A stretch of DNA of 36,829 bases. Origin: Chlorobiaceae bacterium. GTDB lineage: Bacteria > Bacteroidota > Chlorobiia > Chlorobiales > Chlorobiaceae. The notes under the pieces are model-generated. The model saw only the letters and a list, made by a program, of their open reading frames with translations. It searched no databases and was not told where the DNA came from. Below are positions 1 through 15,797 of this stretch, piece after piece. The DNA lies in contig JAAXWP010000029.1 in the NCBI GenBank assembly GCA_013334925.1, forward strand, positions 1 through 36,829, given 5' to 3'. The position numbers and the translations under genes are program-made. Numbering within the stretch: position 1 is the stretch's first letter; each line of letters starts with the position of its first letter.

Positions 1-1097
1 GCGTAATCCGACAGGCGAAGTGCGGCGTCCATGACCTCGCCGTAGATGTCCCACTGATTCTGCCGGAAAGCGGCATTGCCGGCTCTGACCGGCCTGGAGC
101 CCAGGTAGCCTTTCAGGTGCATCAGCGAGCGCTCTTCGAGCGCCTGTTCGCCATGGATCGAATACATGATCTGCAGTCGGCGGCTGCCGTGCCGTCGGTA
201 GGTGGCATGAAGCCAGCGGATGAAGCTGTCGGCTTCACTGACATGTCCGAGGGAGAAGAGGGCCTTGAGCGTGAACGAGGCGTCCCGCAGCCAGGTGAAC
301 CGGTAGTCCCAGTTTCGCGGGCCGCCAGGAGTTTCGGGCAGGGAGGTCGTGGCCGCTGCAGCGATAGCTCCGGTCGGCTGGATGGTCAGCAGCTTGAGCA
401 CCAGGAGCGAACGATGGACCAGGGGGGTGAATTCACCGAGCCAGGCACATCGCTGGCCAATGCAGAATTGTATCCACTCTTCCCAGTAGGTTTTCGTCGA
501 TTCGTAAGGACAGGGCAATCGTTCAGGCTTGCTTTCCGTATACAGGTCCACATGCGCAGCCTCACCGGTCGAGAGGGTGAAACTCAGGCGCAGCGTGTCG
601 GTACCGAGTCCTTCAGACTGGTATTCGGGTCCGGAAATGACCAGATGCAGGCAAAGTTTATCGGTTGTTGCGGTGAATCCATCGCCTTCAGCCTGGATGA
701 TTGGGCTGCAGTTGGCGTAGTCGGGCCGGGGTGCGAAGATCAGCACGAGCCGGGTTTGACCATCGATGGCATGAACACAACGGTGTATTCCCTGGGGTCG
801 TTGCGGCTGACGGGTATTTTCGACAGGCATGAAATCATCGAGCCTGATCGTTCCAGAGGCCGTCGTGAAGGTGGTCGAGAGGATATTGGTCTCAGGAATG
901 TATTCGCGGGTCGAAGTGAAGGGCGCTGCGGGGCACAATGAAAAACAGCCGCCTCGTTCATCGTCGAGCAGCGCGCCGAACACGGTGGGCGAGTCGAGCC
1001 AGGGCAGGCAGCAGTAGTCGATCGAACCATCACGCGAAACCAGTGCTGACGATCGCATGTCGCCGATCACGCCATAATCTGCAATATTGCGATACAT
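1..1097 (-). CDS. Glycoside hydrolase family 15 (glucoamylase/trehalase-like), 3' end outside window
   Basis: The reading frame starts at the ATG at 1097 and stays open to the window edge, giving the first 365 residues. The N-terminus MYRNIADYGVIGDMRSSALV and the following SRDGSIDYCCLPWLDSPTVFGALLDD are typical of the N-terminal domain of GH15-like proteins. Residues about 255-275 hold the catalytic-domain signature LPETPGGPRNWDYRFTWLRD, and VRAGNAAFRQNQWDIYGEV follows near residues 335-355. The family is usually about 600 residues, so roughly 40% is missing, including the C-terminal catalytic glutamate. The expected role is hydrolysis of alpha-glucosidic bonds in glucans or trehalose, probably in turnover of storage carbohydrate; the substrate cannot be told from this part. 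It lies 67 bases downstream of the hybrid kinase on the same strand, with a GC-rich hairpin between them. Family confidence is high; substrate is open. Confidence 0.88.
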   Translation of the reverse strand, partial: MYRNIADYGVIGDMRSSALVSRDGSIDYCCLPWLDSPTVFGALLDDERGGCFSLCPAAPFTSTREYIPETNILSTTFTTASGTIRLDDFMPVENTRQPQRPQGIHRCVHAIDGQTRLVLIFAPRPDYANCSPIIQAEGDGFTATTDKLCLHLVISGPEYQSEGLGTDTLRLSFTLSTGEAAHVDLYTESKPERLPCPYESTKTYWEEWIQFCIGQRCAWLGEFTPLVHRSLLVLKLLTIQPTGAIAAAATTSLPETPGGPRNWDYRFTWLRDASFTLKALFSLGHVSEADSFIRWLHATYRRHGSRRLQIMYSIHGEQALEERSLMHLKGYLGSRPVRAGNAAFRQNQWDIYGEVMDAALRLSDY

Positions 1098-1164: not shown

Positions 1165-3294
1165 TCAGACTTCGACGGGGCGCTCGTTTTTCAGCATCGC
1201 AGCCACTTTCTGCAGGAACAGCTTCATCTTGACCGGCTTGATGAGGCAGTCGTTCATGCCGCTCAGCTTTGCCATCTGCAGCGCTTTGTTATCGAGATTG
1301 CCGCTGAGGCCCAGGATCGGGATGTCCTTGTTGATGCTGCTTGAAGAGCGCAGACGCCTCGATGCTTCGAATCCGTCCAGCACCGGCATTTTCATGTCCA
1401 TGACCAGCAGGTCGCAACGGTTTTCATCGAGCTTGTGGAGCGCCTCCTGACCGTTCGATGCTTCGAGGATCGTTACATCGAGTTTTCTGAGCATCGACTT
1501 GATGACCCTGCGGTTGAAGTCCAGATCGTCAACCACGAGCACCGTTTTTCCTGACAGGGACTCCTTGAGTGCCTCACGTGAGGTTTCAAGCGAAATTTTA
1601 AGCACCTGCAGCAATTCGGACAGTACCGGTGGCATGGAGATCCGGGCATCGATTCCTGAGGGCTCCTCTCCCTCTTTTGCCTCGACTGGCTGGTGATCGG
1701 AAACGAAAGCTATAACCGGAATCTCTTTGCCCTGGGCATCGAGTCTTTTGGCTATTTCCGAGGCACTCAGTACAGGAAGATTGAGATCCGAAAGAATGAT
1801 GTCGTAGCGTTTCGCCTCTATCATGCTCATTGCCGATGCTCCCTCCGCGGCTTCGTCTATCTTGAGACCGAGAGGTGCAAGCTGTCTTTGGATAATGGCC
1901 AGATTTTCCCGATCGTTCCCGGCCAGCAGCAGGCGCTTGCCTGAAAGGAGTGATTTGTACTCTGCATACAGATTCGCTTCGAAATCTTCGATCAGATCCC
2001 TGTCGAGTACCGGGAATGTCAGTGTGAATTCCGTGAATTTTCCGAATTCGGAACTGCACAGGATGTCGCCACCGAATGAGCGCATCACTCTCCGACAGAA
2101 TGCGAGGCCGAGCCCGGTGCCACCCTTTTTACCAGAGGTGAAGAAGGGATCGAAGATCCGGTTGAGAATTTCAGAAGGTATACCCGGTCCGTTATCCCGG
2201 ACGATCACCCTGTTCACATCCGAACCGGTTTCAAACCTGATTTCAATTTTTCCATCAGGTCGCTCACGAAGCACATGCAGCGCATTCAGGAAAAGATTGT
2301 ACAGCACAAACAGGTAGCTGTTTTCATCTCCCCTGAAGATGAAGTCATTTTCACCCTGCAGCATGATTTTGTGGCGCTCTTCTTCGGAAGCATAACCGTA
2401 TTCATCAATTGCCTTCCGGGTGGTAGCTGCAGCTGAGAGAGAGGAGAAGTTATGTCTGAACAGATCCTCCCCCCTGAAGTTTTCGAGGGTCATATCGATG
2501 ATGTGCAGGCCGCGATTGACAGCTGTCTGTGCCTGGGCCACACGTTGCCTGATGGTTTTGGCAAGCTCTGCAAGCTGTGTTGTATCTCCAGAGTGATCAA
2601 GTCTGTTGGGCAGCAGTTCCTGCAGAATCTCATCGAGATTGTGGCTGATCTGACCGAGAGGGTTTCGCATTTCGTGGGCGATGCCTCCGGCAAGTGCCTC
2701 GAGCGCGAGGTTTTTCTCTTCAGCTTTTCTTCGCTCTTCAGCTTTCATACTCTGCCAGTTGCTGAAACTGAACATGTATCCGGCGACAATCGAGAACAGA
2801 ATGACCAGACTCCAGAGAGGAATGTTGAAGTGAGGTTCAAGCGGTACTTGTGGGGCAGACAGTACATAGAACGCGATAGCCCCGAGCACACCGATGATCA
2901 GATCGAGCAGAAACAGCAGCCAGTTCGGAACGAACATGATCAGCACGAATACCATGAAGATCTCCCAGTACAACCAGAGTTCATGAAAGTTGTTCATGAG
3001 CAGATTGGTTGTGAAGATAAACGGGAGAACAAAGATCAGCATGAAATGCCAGTAGATCGGGAAATACTGCTGCTGTTTTTCGGAGAGTTTCGGCTTGAGG
3101 AGCGCGCAAAGGCATAGCGTGACGGCAAGCATCCTCAATGCGAAATTCTCATAAGGAAGGTGGAATACGTACTTGAAAATGAAATAAAATGAAAAATGTG
3201 CGGGAGCCCCCAGGAGAGCTGCCGCCTTGGCGTTGGAGCGGGAGACGAGAGTTCCGTCCTTGATGAACTCTCGTATGTGAGCAAGAAGCTTCAT
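1165..3294 (-). CDS. Membrane hybrid histidine kinase with CqsS/LqsS-like sensor and two receiver domains
   Basis: I take the ATG at 3294 (709 residues); the longer frame begins at GTG 3360 inside the upstream gene. Residues about 25-190 are hydrophobic, with about six membrane segments and no periplasmic loop domain. The part FKYVFHLPYENFALRM resembles the sensor region of Vibrio CqsS and Legionella LqsS, which detect alpha-hydroxyketones; I recognise this from memory only. The H-box is GGIAHEMRNPL (His near 207). The ATPase domain has N-box NLFLNALH, G1 DNGPGIP and G2 GTGLGLAFCRR. Receiver 1 (about 450-570) looks degenerate: GND replaces the acidic pair, and Met stands where the conserved Lys of KP should be, although DLNLP keeps an Asp. 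Receiver 2 (about 585-703) is intact (VVDD, MDMKMP, IKP). The upstream flavoprotein gene stops one base before this start, so the two are almost certainly co-transcribed. No DNA-binding output domain is present, so a partner is expected elsewhere. Confidence 0.85.
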   Translation of the reverse strand: MKLLAHIREFIKDGTLVSRSNAKAAALLGAPAHFSFYFIFKYVFHLPYENFALRMLAVTLCLCALLKPKLSEKQQQYFPIYWHFMLIFVLPFIFTTNLLMNNFHELWLYWEIFMVFVLIMFVPNWLLFLLDLIIGVLGAIAFYVLSAPQVPLEPHFNIPLWSLVILFSIVAGYMFSFSNWQSMKAEERRKAEEKNLALEALAGGIAHEMRNPLGQISHNLDEILQELLPNRLDHSGDTTQLAELAKTIRQRVAQAQTAVNRGLHIIDMTLENFRGEDLFRHNFSSLSAAATTRKAIDEYGYASEEERHKIMLQGENDFIFRGDENSYLFVLYNLFLNALHVLRERPDGKIEIRFETGSDVNRVIVRDNGPGIPSEILNRIFDPFFTSGKKGGTGLGLAFCRRVMRSFGGDILCSSEFGKFTEFTLTFPVLDRDLIEDFEANLYAEYKSLLSGKRLLLAGNDRENLAIIQRQLAPLGLKIDEAAEGASAMSMIEAKRYDIILSDLNLPVLSASEIAKRLDAQGKEIPVIAFVSDHQPVEAKEGEEPSGIDARISMPPVLSELLQVLKISLETSREALKESLSGKTVLVVDDLDFNRRVIKSMLRKLDVTILEASNGQEALHKLDENRCDLLVMDMKMPVLDGFEASRRLRSSSSINKDIPILGLSGNLDNKALQMAKLSGMNDCLIKPVKMKLFLQKVAAMLKNERPVEV

Positions 3295-3295
3295 G

Positions 3296-4603
3296 TCATC
3301 GCCCGGTAAGTATTTTGACGCACTCTTCCGCAGCTCTGAAACAGGCCTCGATCGATGCACCGCGCCGGTAATCCCCAGTTACGAAAAAACCTGGAATCTG
3401 TTCCAGTTCCCGATCGATTCTGCCAAGCAATTCATGATGATATGGGGAATATGCGCAGAGACCTTCTGGAAGGTACTGATAGACAAAGGCCTCTCTCGGA
3501 TTGCCGCGGATGTTGAAATGCGGGGAGGCAATCTCTTCTCCGAGACTGACGACAGCTTCGGGAGCGGAGAATTCAGAAATGGTCCGTCTCGATACGTTAC
3601 CGCTGAAGGTGTACCGCACGAGGTCAAGGTCATTGATACCGTATGCGCCGGCATTGCTCAGGGCTACCGAGTTGTCGAATATCATTGCGCGGCAGTCCGA
3701 TTTGAACACCGGATTTCGGTATCTCACGATGGCAACGGCAACCGGATAGTATCGGATCTGTCTCAGCAGTTTGGCTGCGGCGGTCAATTCTCGTTCGATC
3801 AACTCCGCCAGCCTGTGTGCCGGTACGGCAGAAATCACCCGGTCGTAGATCTCGGAACCCGGTATACCTTTGTTCAGGAACTCAAGTCTGACAGAATTCG
3901 TGTTTTCGTCCCGGCTGACAGAGGTGACCGGGCAGTTTTCAAATATCCTGAGTGAGCCGGGTGCGTCCATTTGTCGGAATGCCGCAAGCAGTCCGTGCAT
4001 GCCTTCCTTGAGCTGCTCGTAACTGTCGAGCGCCAGAGCGATGTTCGATCCGAGATTGCCCGGATAGCATTCGTCTGGTTCAGCTCCGTTCATCCTGATC
4101 GTAACCGGCCTGATGATGTTGTTGACACAGCGATTGTTCAGATATTTCGCCAGCGTCATATGGTCAAGACGTTCCGATATCCTGACGAAATAATCACTGC
4201 AGAGCACACCCTGAGTTCTGTCGTCGAGAATAGCCCTGGCCATAGGGTACAGTTTTCTGTACCCATCAAGGCCGCAAAGTTTCAGAATTCTCAGAAGGTT
4301 AAAGAATTTCGATCCCTCACGGCTGAACTTGACGATCCGGCCATTGACCATCTGTGACGTGTTCAATCCGAAATATTCGAATTCAGGACTGCCGCAAGCC
4401 TTGACGAATTCCCTGAATCTTGTATAGTGTTTCCCGATATTCTTACCGCCGAAATCAACCTTTCTCAGAAGAAGCTGTTCACTTCCGATTCTTCCTCCAA
4501 TGGAACTGCCTGCTTCATAAAGATCAACATCGAAATTCAGTTTCCTGAGGTAATACGCCGAAGCGATTCCTGAAACGCCACTTCCAATAACCGCTATGCG
4601 CAT
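3296..4603 (-). CDS. FAD-dependent amine oxidase / protoporphyrinogen-oxidase-like flavoprotein
   Basis: The 435-residue product opens with a dinucleotide-binding fold: IGSGVSGIASAYYLRKLNFDVDLYEA, followed by GGRIGSEQ, the GG motif of the amine oxidase/phytoene desaturase/UDP-galactopyranose mutase superfamily. The C-terminus FVTGDYRRGASIEACFRAAEECVKIL is the usual final FAD contact (GD...GASIEA). No signal peptide or membrane helix is evident. The start overlaps the end of the AfsA-like gene by 10 bases and the stop is one base from the kinase ATG, so all three should be made from one message. Known relatives oxidise amines, porphyrinogens or carotenoid precursors. Here I infer a step in making or modifying a small molecule together with the AfsA-like protein. 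The family is clear; the substrate is unknown. Confidence 0.82.
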   Translation of the reverse strand: MRIAVIGSGVSGIASAYYLRKLNFDVDLYEAGSSIGGRIGSEQLLLRKVDFGGKNIGKHYTRFREFVKACGSPEFEYFGLNTSQMVNGRIVKFSREGSKFFNLLRILKLCGLDGYRKLYPMARAILDDRTQGVLCSDYFVRISERLDHMTLAKYLNNRCVNNIIRPVTIRMNGAEPDECYPGNLGSNIALALDSYEQLKEGMHGLLAAFRQMDAPGSLRIFENCPVTSVSRDENTNSVRLEFLNKGIPGSEIYDRVISAVPAHRLAELIERELTAAAKLLRQIRYYPVAVAIVRYRNPVFKSDCRAMIFDNSVALSNAGAYGINDLDLVRYTFSGNVSRRTISEFSAPEAVVSLGEEIASPHFNIRGNPREAFVYQYLPEGLCAYSPYHHELLGRIDRELEQIPGFFVTGDYRRGASIEACFRAAEECVKILTGR

Positions 4604-5514
4604 GCTCGGTTGTTCTCCATTTGTTGAAGCTGCATGAGTCTGGATTCAAAATGCGTTTTTTGCCGCGCAGCGATTTTTTCAATACGCGCCTCTTTTACTA
4701 CGCACGATGATTCGCTCATAAATGCAAATCCAATCAGCATTGCTTCTGCGCAAACCCTGCCCCACTGGATGACCTGGGCATATACAGGAATCTCTTTATC
4801 TTCACTTTTTCTGTCCGCAGTGAAGCTGCTGTACGCCCGGATAATGATCGGCGAAGAGCGTTCAACAAAATGGAAAAACCCCATGTTGTAACTTAAAAGC
4901 GCGATCTGTCCATCGAGTGGAAGACCCTGAAGATGTCCGACACTTATGCCTACCTGTCGTAACGCTTCGATCATCAGCATTCCCTGAACATGGGCTGATT
5001 CATGATCAAAATGCATTTCATCTGTTTCGAGCGACATGTTGAAGTGCCAGATGTTGCCTTTTAAACATGGCTCTGAAATCAGAATGTTGGATTCGCTTGT
5101 CTTGTGTACCAGGGCTTTGCTGATCTTTGAACCGGGCGGTGATCCTGGCGACAGCGCAATCGGGCTTCTGAGCAATCCTTTCAGGTCGAACGGCAGCTTG
5201 CGCATCATCTCAGCGGCAACCCTCGAATCCAGTCGGGTATCGGGGGCCTGTAACACGCAGGCAAGTTTCCTGATCTGTTTTTCCATTTCCGGATGCTCCA
5301 GCCGATACTCCTGAGAGATGTGCAGTGAGCAGGTATCTCCGAGCAATACCAGATAACGGGCAGCTTCTTCAGCTGATCGTACCGTGATAATGTGCGATCC
5401 ATCTTCCGGTGCCGAGGCTGAATCTTCGGTAATGAGAAGTGTGTACGATGTCAAACCAACGGAAAGGATGTCATAATCCTCACCTTGACCATGGTTTTTG
5501 TTGATCTGTTGCAT
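4594..5514 (-). CDS. AfsA-like hotdog protein (possible butyrolactone-type signal synthase)
   Basis: The product has 306 residues. Residues about 136-290 match the A-factor biosynthesis hotdog pattern: VHKTSESNILISE, then HFDHESAHVQGMLMIEALRQVG (168-189), which carries the characteristic E-A-x-RQ, then a second strand set ending in RIEKI. In Streptomyces, AfsA condenses a beta-ketoacyl chain with dihydroxyacetone phosphate to start gamma-butyrolactone synthesis, and the protein usually has two hotdog repeats. Here I see one clear repeat; residues 1-125 do not look like a second copy and I do not recognise them. No signal peptide or membrane segment is evident, so it should be cytosolic. It is the first gene of an overlapping unit with a flavoprotein and a sensor kinase, which suggests signal production coupled to signal sensing. 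An AfsA-fold protein with another role, such as a ligand-binding thioesterase-like protein, remains possible. Confidence 0.72.
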   Translation of the reverse strand: MQQINKNHGQGEDYDILSVGLTSYTLLITEDSASAPEDGSHIITVRSAEEAARYLVLLGDTCSLHISQEYRLEHPEMEKQIRKLACVLQAPDTRLDSRVAAEMMRKLPFDLKGLLRSPIALSPGSPPGSKISKALVHKTSESNILISEPCLKGNIWHFNMSLETDEMHFDHESAHVQGMLMIEALRQVGISVGHLQGLPLDGQIALLSYNMGFFHFVERSSPIIIRAYSSFTADRKSEDKEIPVYAQVIQWGRVCAEAMLIGFAFMSESSCVVKEARIEKIAARQKTHFESRLMQLQQMENNRACA

Positions 5515-5864: not shown

Positions 5865-6257
5865 TCAGGAGAGATTTCTCGGAACCTGAGAAGAGTGGTG
5901 ATGCACGATCGGATTTTCAAGTGAAAGATCGACAGCGAACGTGAATCTTGACGGGAATGTCAGAAGAAGCTGATCAACTTCGAATTCGAAGGCATAAAGA
6001 CCACTGAGGACCCAGGAACTGCATCCCAGTGACTGTTTTTTTAGAGATTTTTCATACAGCCTGACCTGAAGCTTGTCTCTGGTGGCCAACTGTTCGAAAT
6101 ACTGCCGGATTCCCTGGGTAGTGTTTACGGTGTGTGGTGAGAAGGTGGGAATGAGTACGGCGTTTTCATGATAGAGTTTTTCGACTTCGTCGATCGCTCC
6201 GTTGCAGATTCCGGATATCCAGGCTGAGAGGACATCTTCGGCATTCTCGTAATGCAT
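5865..6257 (-). CDS. SnoaL-like / calmodulin-kinase association-domain family protein
   Basis: This 130-residue product has the compact cystatin-like fold pattern of the SnoaL/DUF4440/CaMKII-association group. It starts with a helix (ENAEDVLSAWISGICNGAIDEVEKLYHENAVLIPTF), continues with GIRQYFEQLA, and ends with strands closing in FTFAVDLSLENPIVHHHSSQVPR, where HHHSS.VP is typical of the CaMKII-AD-like branch. Members bind small hydrophobic ligands or form oligomers; some are enzymes in polyketide tailoring. No signal peptide is visible. It is set off from the AfsA-like unit by a hairpin, so it is probably transcribed alone although it is on the same strand. No specific function can be given. 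Confidence 0.72.
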   Translation of the reverse strand: MHYENAEDVLSAWISGICNGAIDEVEKLYHENAVLIPTFSPHTVNTTQGIRQYFEQLATRDKLQVRLYEKSLKKQSLGCSSWVLSGLYAFEFEVDQLLLTFPSRFTFAVDLSLENPIVHHHSSQVPRNLS

Positions 6258-6467: not shown

Positions 6468-7172
6468 TTACATTTTCAATTCGCCGCTCTGTGCCTGGCG
6501 TTTGAGCTCATTATTGGCGTAGATCAACACTTCAACACGTCGGTTGAGACGCCGGCCGGCTTCGGTTTCGTTCGTTGCGACAGGTCTGGTTTCACCATAT
6601 CCTACGCTACTGATACGGCTGCCCGATACACCGTATGCTCTCAGAAGCGAACCTACCGATTCAGCACGCCTTTCGGAAAGGGTCTGGTTTGTCGCTTCAT
6701 TGCCGACCGTATCCGTGTGGCCCTCGATGACCACATTCGTGTCCTTGTAATTATTCATGATTCTGGCGAGCTTTTCGATGTTGTAACGGCTCGCCGAGTT
6801 GATGGTCGATGAACCTGTCGAAAAGAGAATGCCGCTGTCGAAGACCACCCTGATGCCTTCGCCTACCCGTTCTACCTGAGCACCCTGTACATCACGCCTG
6901 ATCTCTGCAGCCTGCCTGTCCATGTAATTTCCGATGACAGAGCCCGCAGCACCGCCAATTGCGGCACCGAGCAATGCGCCTTTTGCCCAGCTTCCGGTTC
7001 GGCTTCCGATAATTCCGCCAAGAAGGGCTCCTGATGTTGCGCCAATGGCTGCACCTCGGGTTCCGCGACCTTCAGTCGCGGTCATCTCGGACTGGCAGCC
7101 CCAGGAGAGTGATGCTGTAGAGAGCAGCAGCCCGACGGCTACCGGCCTGGTGAGTTTCTTCATGGTTGTCAT
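6468..7172 (-). CDS. OmpA-family lipoprotein with glycine-zipper segment
   Basis: The 234-residue product has a lipoprotein signal ending in LSWGC, then a glycine-rich zipper (AAIGATSGALLGGIIGSRTG...GALLGAAIGGAAGSVIGNYMD, about residues 40-85). Residues about 105-220 are an OmpA C-terminal peptidoglycan-binding domain, with VIEGHTDTVGNEATNQTLSERRAESV and the ending NRRVEVLI. The architecture matches the YiaD/Pal-like group, which tethers the outer membrane to peptidoglycan. Two ATG codons are possible (7172 and 7163); both leave the signal intact. It is followed by a perfect 13-bp hairpin. Confidence 0.9.
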   Translation of the reverse strand: MTTMKKLTRPVAVGLLLSTASLSWGCQSEMTATEGRGTRGAAIGATSGALLGGIIGSRTGSWAKGALLGAAIGGAAGSVIGNYMDRQAAEIRRDVQGAQVERVGEGIRVVFDSGILFSTGSSTINSASRYNIEKLARIMNNYKDTNVVIEGHTDTVGNEATNQTLSERRAESVGSLLRAYGVSGSRISSVGYGETRPVATNETEAGRRLNRRVEVLIYANNELKRQAQSGELKM

Positions 7173-13127: not shown

Positions 13128-14392
13128 CGGCTCTCCTGGATCCGGATTCGGCTTCCGTCACGAAGCTCGCGGGTGATGGCGCTGAAACTGCCGGACACGA
13201 CCGTTTCGCCCTCCCTGAGACCTGAAAGTACGATGATGTGTGTGTTGTCGGTCATGCCGGTAGTAACCTTCCGGAACCGGACGATGCCATCGCTGACCAC
13301 GAATACTCCCTCAAGTCCCTCCGGCGCCCGGTTCGGCGTTGTCGACTGAACGACCTTGTCTTCGTCCGACGCGTTTTTCTCCGGTTTGACCATTGCCGTG
13401 GCATTTTCCCTGATGGTCACGCTCTGGATCGGCACGACAAGCGCATTGGGCACACGGTTCGTTTCGATGTCAGCCGTGGCGCTCATGCCTGGTTTAAGCA
13501 GTCGCTGATGGTTCAGTACCCTGATCTTGACCGAGAAATTGGTTACCTCCTCCTGGGTTCCTGCTGCTTTCGTTATGGCCGAGCTGGAGATCTCCCTGAC
13601 GACACCGGAGAACTTCCGGTCGCCGAAAGCGTCGACCGTGACCGTGACCGGATTGCCGACGCGGACATTGACGATATCGTTCTCGTTGACTTCGACCTCG
13701 ACCTGCATGCTGTCGAGATTGGCGATACGGAGAACTTCGGTGCCGGGGAACTGTCCGGTACCGACGACACGCTCACCGATCTTGCTTTTCAGCAGGGTGA
13801 TCGTGCCGTTCATCGGGGCCTTGACGATTGTTTTTCTCAGGCGCTCTTCATTCTGGCTGAGCAGACTGCGATTCTGTTCGATGCCGTAGCGCGACGCCTC
13901 GTAAGCCGCTTTCGACGATTCGGCGTTGGTCTTGGCTGTCAGCCACTCAGTCTGGGAGATCAGGCGCTCCTTGTAGAGCAGGTCGGCCTTGCGGAAGTCG
14001 TCACTGGACTTGAGCATTCTCGCCCTCGAATCGAGGCTCTGAGCGCGAGCCAGGTTCATCTGTGCCCGACTCTGTTCGACCTGATTTTCATAGATATCGG
14101 GTTGTATCCTGAAAAGCAGATCGCCAGACTTGACCTGTTGGCCCTCCCTGACCGGGAGTTCGATGATCTCACCCGAAACGTCAGGGGACATGACCACTTC
14201 GGTTTCAGGCTGGATCTTGCCGGTGGCGGTCACCACATGCACCACCTCTTTTCGGAAGGCTTTTTCGGTCGTTACCTCTAACGGTTTTTCCCGCAGTTTC
14301 AGCCACAGTCCGAGCACGATCAGAACCAGTACGGTTGCACCGGATATGATGATGACTGAATTTCGTTTTTTTGTTCGCTGTTTGTTGGCCAT
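13124..14392 (-). CDS. Periplasmic membrane-fusion protein (MacA/HlyD family)
   Basis: The 422-residue product has a short basic N-terminus and a single membrane anchor ([20 protein letters not shown]). A lipoyl/barrel-sandwich half ([39 protein letters not shown]) leads into a long alpha-helical hairpin (about 95-185), the second lipoyl half ([22 protein letters not shown]) and a beta-barrel domain. It should bridge the inner-membrane permeases and the TolC-type channel across the periplasm. It lies between the TolC gene (22 bases) and the ATPase gene (4-base overlap). A Lys/Asp/Glu-rich insert near residues 340-360 ([14 protein letters not shown]) is unusual but does not disturb the domain order. 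Confidence 0.93.
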
Positions 14393-14414
14393 AAATGGGT
14401 GATGCGTTACGATA

Positions 14415-15797
14415 CTATTCTGAAACAGCCTTGCCGGAGGTATAGTCGAGCAGGGCTTTCTGCAGGGCCAGGTTGTACGCTGCCTGCGTCAGGCCGGATT
14501 TCGCGTTGAAGAGCGTGGCTCTCGCCGCGCTGAGCTCGACGAATCCGCTGGCCCCGAGTTCGTATTTTCTCTGTACGGCACTGAATGCCGAGCTGGCGGC
14601 GCGGAGGCTCGCTTTTGCCGCTTCGAGCTGGGTGAACGCTGCCCGGTAATCCGCCGCCGTCTGACGGATGTCGAGAACGACGCCATCCTTCAGCTCCTCA
14701 TAATCGAGCCGCCGGTTCAGCAGGGCAACCTTAGCGGATTCGACGCTGTATCTGGTGAGGAACCCGTCGAAGATGGACCAGTTCAGATTCAGCGACACCA
14801 TGTAGCCGACGCCGTTTTCAAGCTGGGTCGATAACGGTGGATAGTAGGAGGTGTAATCGGTGCCGTTGTACTTCAGGAAGTTTGTCCCGTCGCTGCTCGC
14901 CGAAAACGCAAGGTCGAGCTTCGGCAATCTGTTGCCGGCGGCCTTTCTGACCTGCCACCGGGCGGCGTCGGTCTCGAGCCGTCCCGCTTCGAGATCTGCG
15001 CGTCGTTTCATGCTCAGCGTGGTGAGGCTGTCCGCATCGACAGAAACCCGAACCGAAGAAGATGAGGATGTATCGATCGGTTCGATGTCGATCGGGGTCA
15101 TCGGATCGATCCTGAGGCGCCGAAGCAGCTCCGAAACGCTTTTTCTCGCCTGGTTATCCGCCTTGATCGCCGTCAGAGAGTTGCTGGCCACCTCCGCCTG
15201 TTGCTGGTAGAGGTCAGTCAGCGATTTGAGACCGATCTGGTATTGCCGGTCGGTCAGGGTCAGGAGGTCGCTGGATGAGTTCAGGTTTTCTCTGGCGATG
15301 CCGAGGAGTTCACGGTCGAGCAGTGCCTGGTAGTAATGCTGGGTGATGTCGAAAACTATGCTCTCCCTGGCGCGCTGCAGGCTCAAGCCGGCAGCATGTT
15401 TCAGATCGATCGCCGACCGTAGGGCGGCATAGTCGGAAAGGCCGTTGAAGATGTTCAGGGATGCCGTCACTCCAAGATTGACCGATTCGGACTCGGTTTT
15501 CACTTTGTCGCCATAAAGAGATCCGGAGATCGATGAACTGTAGGAGCGGTTCACCGAACGCGGAACATAGCCAGCTGTCGCACTGACTTTCGGCAGGAAG
15601 CTGCCATAGCTTTTCAGGAGGTCGGCACCTTCGAGCCTGAGATTGTTTTCGGCCTTTTTAACCTGAGTCGCGTTTTTCAGAGCGATCGAAATGCACTCCT
15701 GAAGTGTGAGCTTCCTCGCTTGAGGCTCAATGGCGGCTACTGCACTCATCGGCGTAAGCAGGAGGACGATAGTCAGAATGAACAGCGTTCTTTTCAC
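14415..15797 (-). CDS. TolC-family outer-membrane efflux channel
   Basis: The 460-residue product has a signal peptide (KRTLFILTIVLLLTPMSAVAA) and two outer-membrane-efflux repeats of long helices: LTLQECISIALKNATQVKKAENNLRLEGADLLKSYGSFLPKVSATAGY in the first half and ADLEAGRLETDAARWQVRKAAGNRLPKLDLAFS in the second, each followed by beta strands. The start is a GTG at 15797; no better ATG exists because the next Met lies inside the signal peptide. It is the first gene of the efflux operon, and its promoter should lie in 15798-15918, where the minus strand has AT-rich TATATTGTATT. Length and layout are normal for TolC proteins. Confidence 0.94.
   Translation of the reverse strand: MKRTLFILTIVLLLTPMSAVAAIEPQARKLTLQECISIALKNATQVKKAENNLRLEGADLLKSYGSFLPKVSATAGYVPRSVNRSYSSSISGSLYGDKVKTESESVNLGVTASLNIFNGLSDYAALRSAIDLKHAAGLSLQRARESIVFDITQHYYQALLDRELLGIARENLNSSSDLLTLTDRQYQIGLKSLTDLYQQQAEVASNSLTAIKADNQARKSVSELLRRLRIDPMTPIDIEPIDTSSSSSVRVSVDADSLTTLSMKRRADLEAGRLETDAARWQVRKAAGNRLPKLDLAFSASSDGTNFLKYNGTDYTSYYPPLSTQLENGVGYMVSLNLNWSIFDGFLTRYSVESAKVALLNRRLDYEELKDGVVLDIRQTAADYRAAFTQLEAAKASLRAASSAFSAVQRKYELGASGFVELSAARATLFNAKSGLTQAAYNLALQKALLDYTSGKAVSE

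Follow-up and report, generated by a model that had tools for sequence, protein, structure and literature searches.

The three-gene cassette

The window analysed here is a stretch of 36,829 nucleotides from a Chlorobiaceae bacterium (contig JAAXWP010000029.1, assembly GCA_013334925.1), in which three consecutive minus-strand open reading frames (ORFs) code for an AfsA-type protein, a flavin adenine dinucleotide (FAD)-dependent enzyme and a hybrid histidine kinase of the CqsS family, hereafter the cassette. Its features are as follows.

4594..5514, minus strand: AfsA-type protein, 306 amino acids; Pfam AfsA
3296..4603, minus strand: FAD-dependent oxidoreductase, 435 amino acids; amine-oxidase/protoporphyrinogen-oxidase fold
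1165..3294, minus strand: CqsS-family hybrid histidine kinase, 709 amino acids from ATG; membrane sensor, DHp, HATPase, REC1 and REC2
2743..3291, minus strand: CqsS-type membrane sensor domain, residues 24-206 in the 731-residue ORF; profile match to Vibrio CqsS
2965..2967, minus strand: codon of W132, aligned to S107 of Vibrio cholerae CqsS, a specificity residue of the fourth transmembrane helix (TM4)
2974-2976, minus strand: codon of W129, the equivalent of W104 in V. cholerae CqsS

An earlier note, made from the sequence alone, had described an overlapping or abutting unit of an AfsA-family hotdog protein, an amine-oxidase-type flavoenzyme and a hybrid kinase with two receivers, and all of this was recovered. 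The AfsA and FAD genes overlap by 10 bases (4594-4603), and a single base separates the FAD gene from the ATG of the kinase at 3294. The longest ORF of the kinase (1165-3360) comprises 731 residues from a GTG at 3360; the ATG at 3294 fits the homologues, and kinase residue numbers (W132, H229, D655) follow the 731-residue numbering. Pfam searches identified AfsA in the first protein (7.8e-33; 113.8 bits against a gathering score of 24 for PF03756, the AfsA hotdog family), Amino_oxidase in the second (1.2e-21), and HATPase_c, a weak HisKA and two Response_reg domains in the third.

The two enzymes

The AfsA-type protein comprises an N-terminal alpha/beta domain (approximately residues 24-106) and one hotdog (approximately residues 150-265), a layout reproduced by its structure model (mean predicted local distance difference test score, pLDDT, 86.9), whose nearest folds are thioesterases and FabZ-type dehydratases. 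Its signature residues are intact, with VHK at residues 136-138, FDHESxHVQG at 169-178 and EALRQ at 183-187. A sequence search of the PDB with this protein returned no convincing relatives. One Pfam AfsA stretch was found in the window protein versus two in five actinobacterial members; in the latter, VHK lies in one copy and FDHxxDHVPGM in the other, while the single hotdog of the window protein bears both motifs, and might act as a homodimer does. The protein scored 34.3 bits with the NCBIfam equivalog model of ScbA/BarX (NF041195), against a cut-off of 200. Because of this score and the single hotdog, the earlier designation as a butyrolactone-type synthase was not supported in that form, and a gamma-butyrolactone label is unproven. 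Since a single AfsA-like domain joins 3-ketothioesters to dihydroxyacetone phosphate (DHAP) in vitro (PMC7756379), a butenolide-type product is plausible by analogy.

The FAD enzyme was modelled with a protoporphyrinogen-oxidase/amine-oxidase fold (pLDDT 87.6); it reached 63.7 bits with the protoporphyrinogen oxidase equivalog model NF008841, whose cut-off is 517, the fold being related. On a plasmid of Aliiroseovarius crassostreae (L171:5251-9495), a trpA-annotated gene, an AfsA gene, an FAD enzyme gene and a gene for an MFS transporter follow one another, so that the AfsA-FAD pair is found there as in the cassette, but without a CqsS-type kinase.

The kinase and its sensor

A profile built on the sensor part only (residues 24-206, excluding DHp) matched two Vibrio CqsS proteins over nearly the full length of the profile (E 5e-13 and 1e-12), with no shuffled sequence reported as a match in the control, and both matched genes adjoin a CqsA gene, itself recognised by sequence. 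The N-terminus of the kinase is therefore homologous to CqsS, in agreement with the earlier note. H229 in DHp and D655 in REC2, which is intact, are invariant in the cassette kinases, and REC1 looks degenerate because its aspartate is kept in just 15 of 27. Pfam detected no HPt domain in the window kinase; the genome contains one short HPt ORF.

CqsS-type kinases are numerous across Chlorobiaceae, seven matches being found in the genome of the window, whereas one relative (G106) has a single AfsA and a single CqsS-type sensor. At one of its loci (L122, G000:C74:46000-65000) three such kinases stand in a row with no adjoining synthase.

Distribution of the cassette

AfsA is carried by 27 of 86 Chlorobiaceae genomes, and when sampling was widened to 394 genomes from the phylum, the identical 27, all within this family, were the carriers. 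A single-protein query with the window AfsA against the genome contigs gave no matches. The conservation of gene order in relatives, proposed earlier as a check, was confirmed: AfsA, FAD enzyme and kinase follow in this order on a single strand in all 27 AfsA-bearing genomes, including that of the named carrier Chlorobium ferrooxidans DSM 13031 (L070), although one contig (L034) stops short of the kinase. Calculated from longest-ORF starts, overlaps ranged from 1 to 163 bases between AfsA and FAD genes and mostly from 1 to 58 bases between FAD and kinase genes, one junction of the latter kind being a 60-base gap attributed to a truncated start call; overlaps such as -10/-4/-1 and -4/-34 were seen again in relatives. 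Both gene order and overlaps are conserved far above chance. None of the three results that the earlier note named as refuting it was obtained. One Chlorobiaceae genome harbours a tandem double cassette plus an additional kinase, and another a single cassette plus an additional kinase.

Outside Chlorobiaceae, the AfsA-FAD-kinase triple occurs in a metagenome-assembled genome of Rickettsiaceae, on a 767-kb contig, between genes that resemble ftsK and xseA when their sequences are read by eye. The G+C content of this cassette resembles that of its downstream neighbours, and its kinase additionally has an HPt domain. The N-terminal part of its AfsA (L076 8486-9597) is open only in a frame other than that of the hotdog part, for which reason this gene may be frameshifted.

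Synthase exchange at one slot

In the genus of the window, the cassette occupies a syntenic slot that reads MacB - OmpA - NTF2 - X - sensor - (GH15) - lpxD - prs - rplY, X being the position of the synthase. Within the window, its flanks are:

5865..6257, minus strand: SnoaL/NTF2-like protein
6468..7172, minus strand: outer-membrane protein labelled OmpA, syntenic
3..1097, minus strand: protein labelled GH15 on the opposite flank, syntenic, extending beyond the window

Position X holds AfsA-FAD in 12 genomes, CqsA in four and a methyltransferase (MT14) in three, flanks being incomplete where contigs end; in one genome (G149) the slot is empty, with NTF2 and lpxD 54 bases apart. As they stand in these sequences, the slot variants are a natural replacement series. 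The slot CqsA is genuine (597-616 bits with NF005526, cut-off 428). In the receptor tree, CqsA-paired slot receptors form one clade (support 100/99) within the AfsA-paired ones, the joint clade being supported by 96/98. The hypothesis that the S-type slot receptors, those with serine at the position of W132, arose once was rejected (p-AU 0.00015), so that, at least for the kinase-containing alignments, the pattern is not accounted for by a simple history in which two ancient receptors were differentially lost. Pairwise identities correlated between AfsA hotdog and sensor (r=0.79), but the sensor tracks its own kinase core equally (r=0.84), everything following common descent, and this analysis was set aside as evidence of coevolution.

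The earlier note had found no CqsA-type enzyme in the window, which is correct for the window and does not extend to its genome, where two CqsA/LqsA-type genes lie elsewhere (G000:C37:54566-55750, L119; G000:C67:175-1365, L169), the former divergent from a neighbouring CqsS-type kinase gene.

Three further enzyme types were observed beside CqsS-type receptors. The S-adenosylmethionine-dependent methyltransferase MT14 stands at the synthase position of the slot (L124:6286-7314, L125, L128:5086-6153); its signal would possibly be a fatty-acid methyl ester. A PhcB-like identity was considered for it, and the matches obtained were to generic methyltransferases only. At seven loci (L137, L142, L145, L148, L149, L157 and L132, about 13818-15227), an enzyme of approximately 465 residues, labelled c4, in which a weak hotdog-like thioesterase match is fused to an LCM-type methyltransferase, is encoded immediately upstream of a CqsS-type kinase and is a candidate for a second putative synthase of unfamiliar type. 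On a plasmid of Paraburkholderia caribensis (L057:4921-8562), the gene directly downstream of that for a KAS-III-type enzyme, which is also acyl-condensing but has a fold unlike that of AfsA, codes for a hybrid kinase of CqsS type; as read from sequence, this kinase likely ends in an HPt domain.

A receptor residue that follows the synthase

For V. cholerae CqsS, reviews (PMC3376566, PMC5007282) assign the ligand's C3 group to W104 and S107 in TM4 as the residues that discriminate it, and its head group and tail to F160/F162/F166 and C170. The numbers of the Vibrio residues were carried over by way of V. campbellii CqsS, for which those reviews supply the C170/F175/F166 correspondence. The window kinase keeps the first residue of the pair (W129) and replaces the second by tryptophan (W132). 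The W104 equivalent is tryptophan in 75 of 75 aligned receptors. At the S107 equivalent, serine was found in all 18 CqsA-paired receptors, tryptophan in all 26 AfsA-paired receptors (the one from Rickettsiaceae included) and in the four MT14-paired ones, alanine or cysteine in the seven c4-paired ones and alanine in the KAS-III-paired one. Among 707 columns, 132 alone is fixed for different residues in the AfsA-paired and CqsA-paired groups; in the sensor domain, only columns 62, 132 and 135 separate them completely.

Two recent tandem receptor copies lying by an AfsA cassette (the second kinase of L041 and the third of L045) bear the CqsA-type serine. CqsA was not found in the genomes of either, and a possible interpretation is that these receptors listen to a foreign signal.

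A putative synthase-receptor pair

The cassette is a real, conserved and exchangeable synthase-receptor unit, and comparative evidence lends good support to its proposed signalling role. Our preferred reading, to which we assign a probability of roughly 0.65, is that the CqsS-family kinase responds to a lipid-derived signal produced by AfsA and the flavoenzyme together, so that the three genes would constitute a self-contained synthase-receptor pair. It builds on the conserved order of the genes together with homology, synteny and covariation, and from these we infer the reaction, the secretion and the ligand binding. The AfsA-type enzyme would probably join a small hydroxylated molecule, which is DHAP in characterised relatives, to an acyl (beta-ketoacyl) thioester by condensation, and the product would be oxidised or desaturated by the flavoenzyme. 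The kinase, whose gene follows next and is translationally coupled, may then detect the resulting diffusible molecule with its CqsS-type membrane domain, and its kinase/phosphatase balance would shift as a result. In other species, the same receptor lineage at this locus is paired with CqsA, which makes an alpha-hydroxyketone (AHK) signal, or with a methyltransferase, pocket residue 132 having changed along with the synthase: it is serine beside CqsA and tryptophan beside AfsA-FAD. Whether single-hotdog AfsA, FAD oxidase and CqsS-family kinase further define a new autoinducer class in a modular locus, whose receptors change ligand class with the synthase in a manner readable at CqsS position 107, seems to us evenly balanced.

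Several observations weigh against a dedicated signalling pair. The comparison includes only two phylogenetically independent CqsA/non-CqsA contrasts, so that a test on independent pairs gives no significance to the covariation (p 0.5). Tryptophan at 132 also occurs beside the methyltransferase, and as a residue common to AfsA and MT14 pairing it indicates a receptor not paired with CqsA, not AfsA pairing as such, while serine is found in three slot receptors with no adjacent CqsA. To these may be added the single hotdog of the window AfsA and its distance from the ScbA model, and a sensor topology judged by hydrophobicity and alignment alone. Finally, the cassette holds no response regulator and HPt went undetected in four of the five relatives with a cassette that were tested, so that an output route is not apparent.

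The product of AfsA and the flavoenzyme could instead be a non-signal compound (a membrane lipid, a pigment or an antimicrobial) with the kinase as its feedback sensor, as might be expected from the Aliiroseovarius pair, which stands beside a transporter and lacks the kinase, from the participation of AfsA-like domains in antibiotic construction (PMC7756379) and from the AfsA cluster of Ruegeria pomeroyi, which is reported to be required for diffusible killing (PMC7426152). We regard this as unlikely, given that CqsA, which is a dedicated autoinducer synthase, makes use of this receptor slot too, and that the cassette consists of two enzymes only, with the receptor always present. It is more improbable that the linkage reflects co-regulation only, the kinase sensing an unrelated environmental cue and controlling both enzymes: several CqsS-type kinases in these genomes have no adjacent synthase at all, but at one locus the receptor residue tracks the synthase type, the genes overlap in nearly every genome, and an identical triple exists in another phylum. 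Less credible still is a kinase that senses an AHK which AfsA and the flavoenzyme modify or destroy. The sensor is indeed of CqsS type, and CqsA is present in the genome of the window and in all 15 AfsA-bearing genomes of a second genus; against this, CqsA is missing from 11 of the 12 genomes in the window's genus that bear AfsA, and the serine that accompanies CqsA pairing is tryptophan in the window kinase.

Relation to known systems

CqsA/CqsS of Vibrio and LqsA/LqsS of Legionella resemble the cassette in their homologous membrane sensor and in the adjacency of synthase and receptor genes, and CqsS shares with the window kinase the hybrid layout and the W104 equivalent. The gatekeeper of the cassette receptors is I, F or A, like the LqsS values in PMC3376566. 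The cassette differs in having AfsA and an FAD enzyme instead of CqsA/LqsA, tryptophan at the S107 equivalent and, in contrast to the CqsS systems, no visible LuxU-type relay, HPt not having been found in several cassette-bearing genomes. With AfsA/ScbA/BarX of Streptomyces, the cassette AfsA has in common the hotdog family, the VHK and E-A-x-R-Q signature and, as proposed, a part in hormone synthesis; those proteins have two hotdogs and a cytosolic TetR-type receptor, whereas the cassette protein has one, falls below the ScbA/BarX equivalog cut-off, and is partnered by an FAD enzyme and, as proposed, a membrane kinase as receptor. A Gram-negative AfsA with signal-like autoregulation is known from R. 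pomeroyi DSS-3, whose afsA (SPOA0342) is required for transcription of its own cluster; the available part of that source describes no CqsS-type kinase (PMC7426152).

CqsA/CqsS homologues in Chlorobiaceae (PMC5289986) and CqsS-like membrane domains in Chlorobia (PMC4821796) have already been reported. Among the open-licence PMC papers searched, we found no description of an AfsA-FAD-receptor cassette or of the synthase exchange. If correct, our preferred reading would join two signalling worlds held to be separate, that of AfsA-made hormones with cytosolic receptors and that of AHKs with membrane kinases, and would predict an undescribed cell-to-cell signal in green sulfur bacteria. It would also provide matched receptors that nature has paired with differing synthases at one locus, and thereby make ligand change in membrane autoinducer receptors testable by one residue (W132/S).

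AfsA-domain genes in other phyla

Two further associations of AfsA-domain genes were observed. In Omnitrophota (L092:2326-5654), the gene of an AfsA-domain protein overlaps that of a sensor kinase, and in Nitrospirota (L087/L088) such a gene overlaps a receiver-domain gene near motility-type genes.
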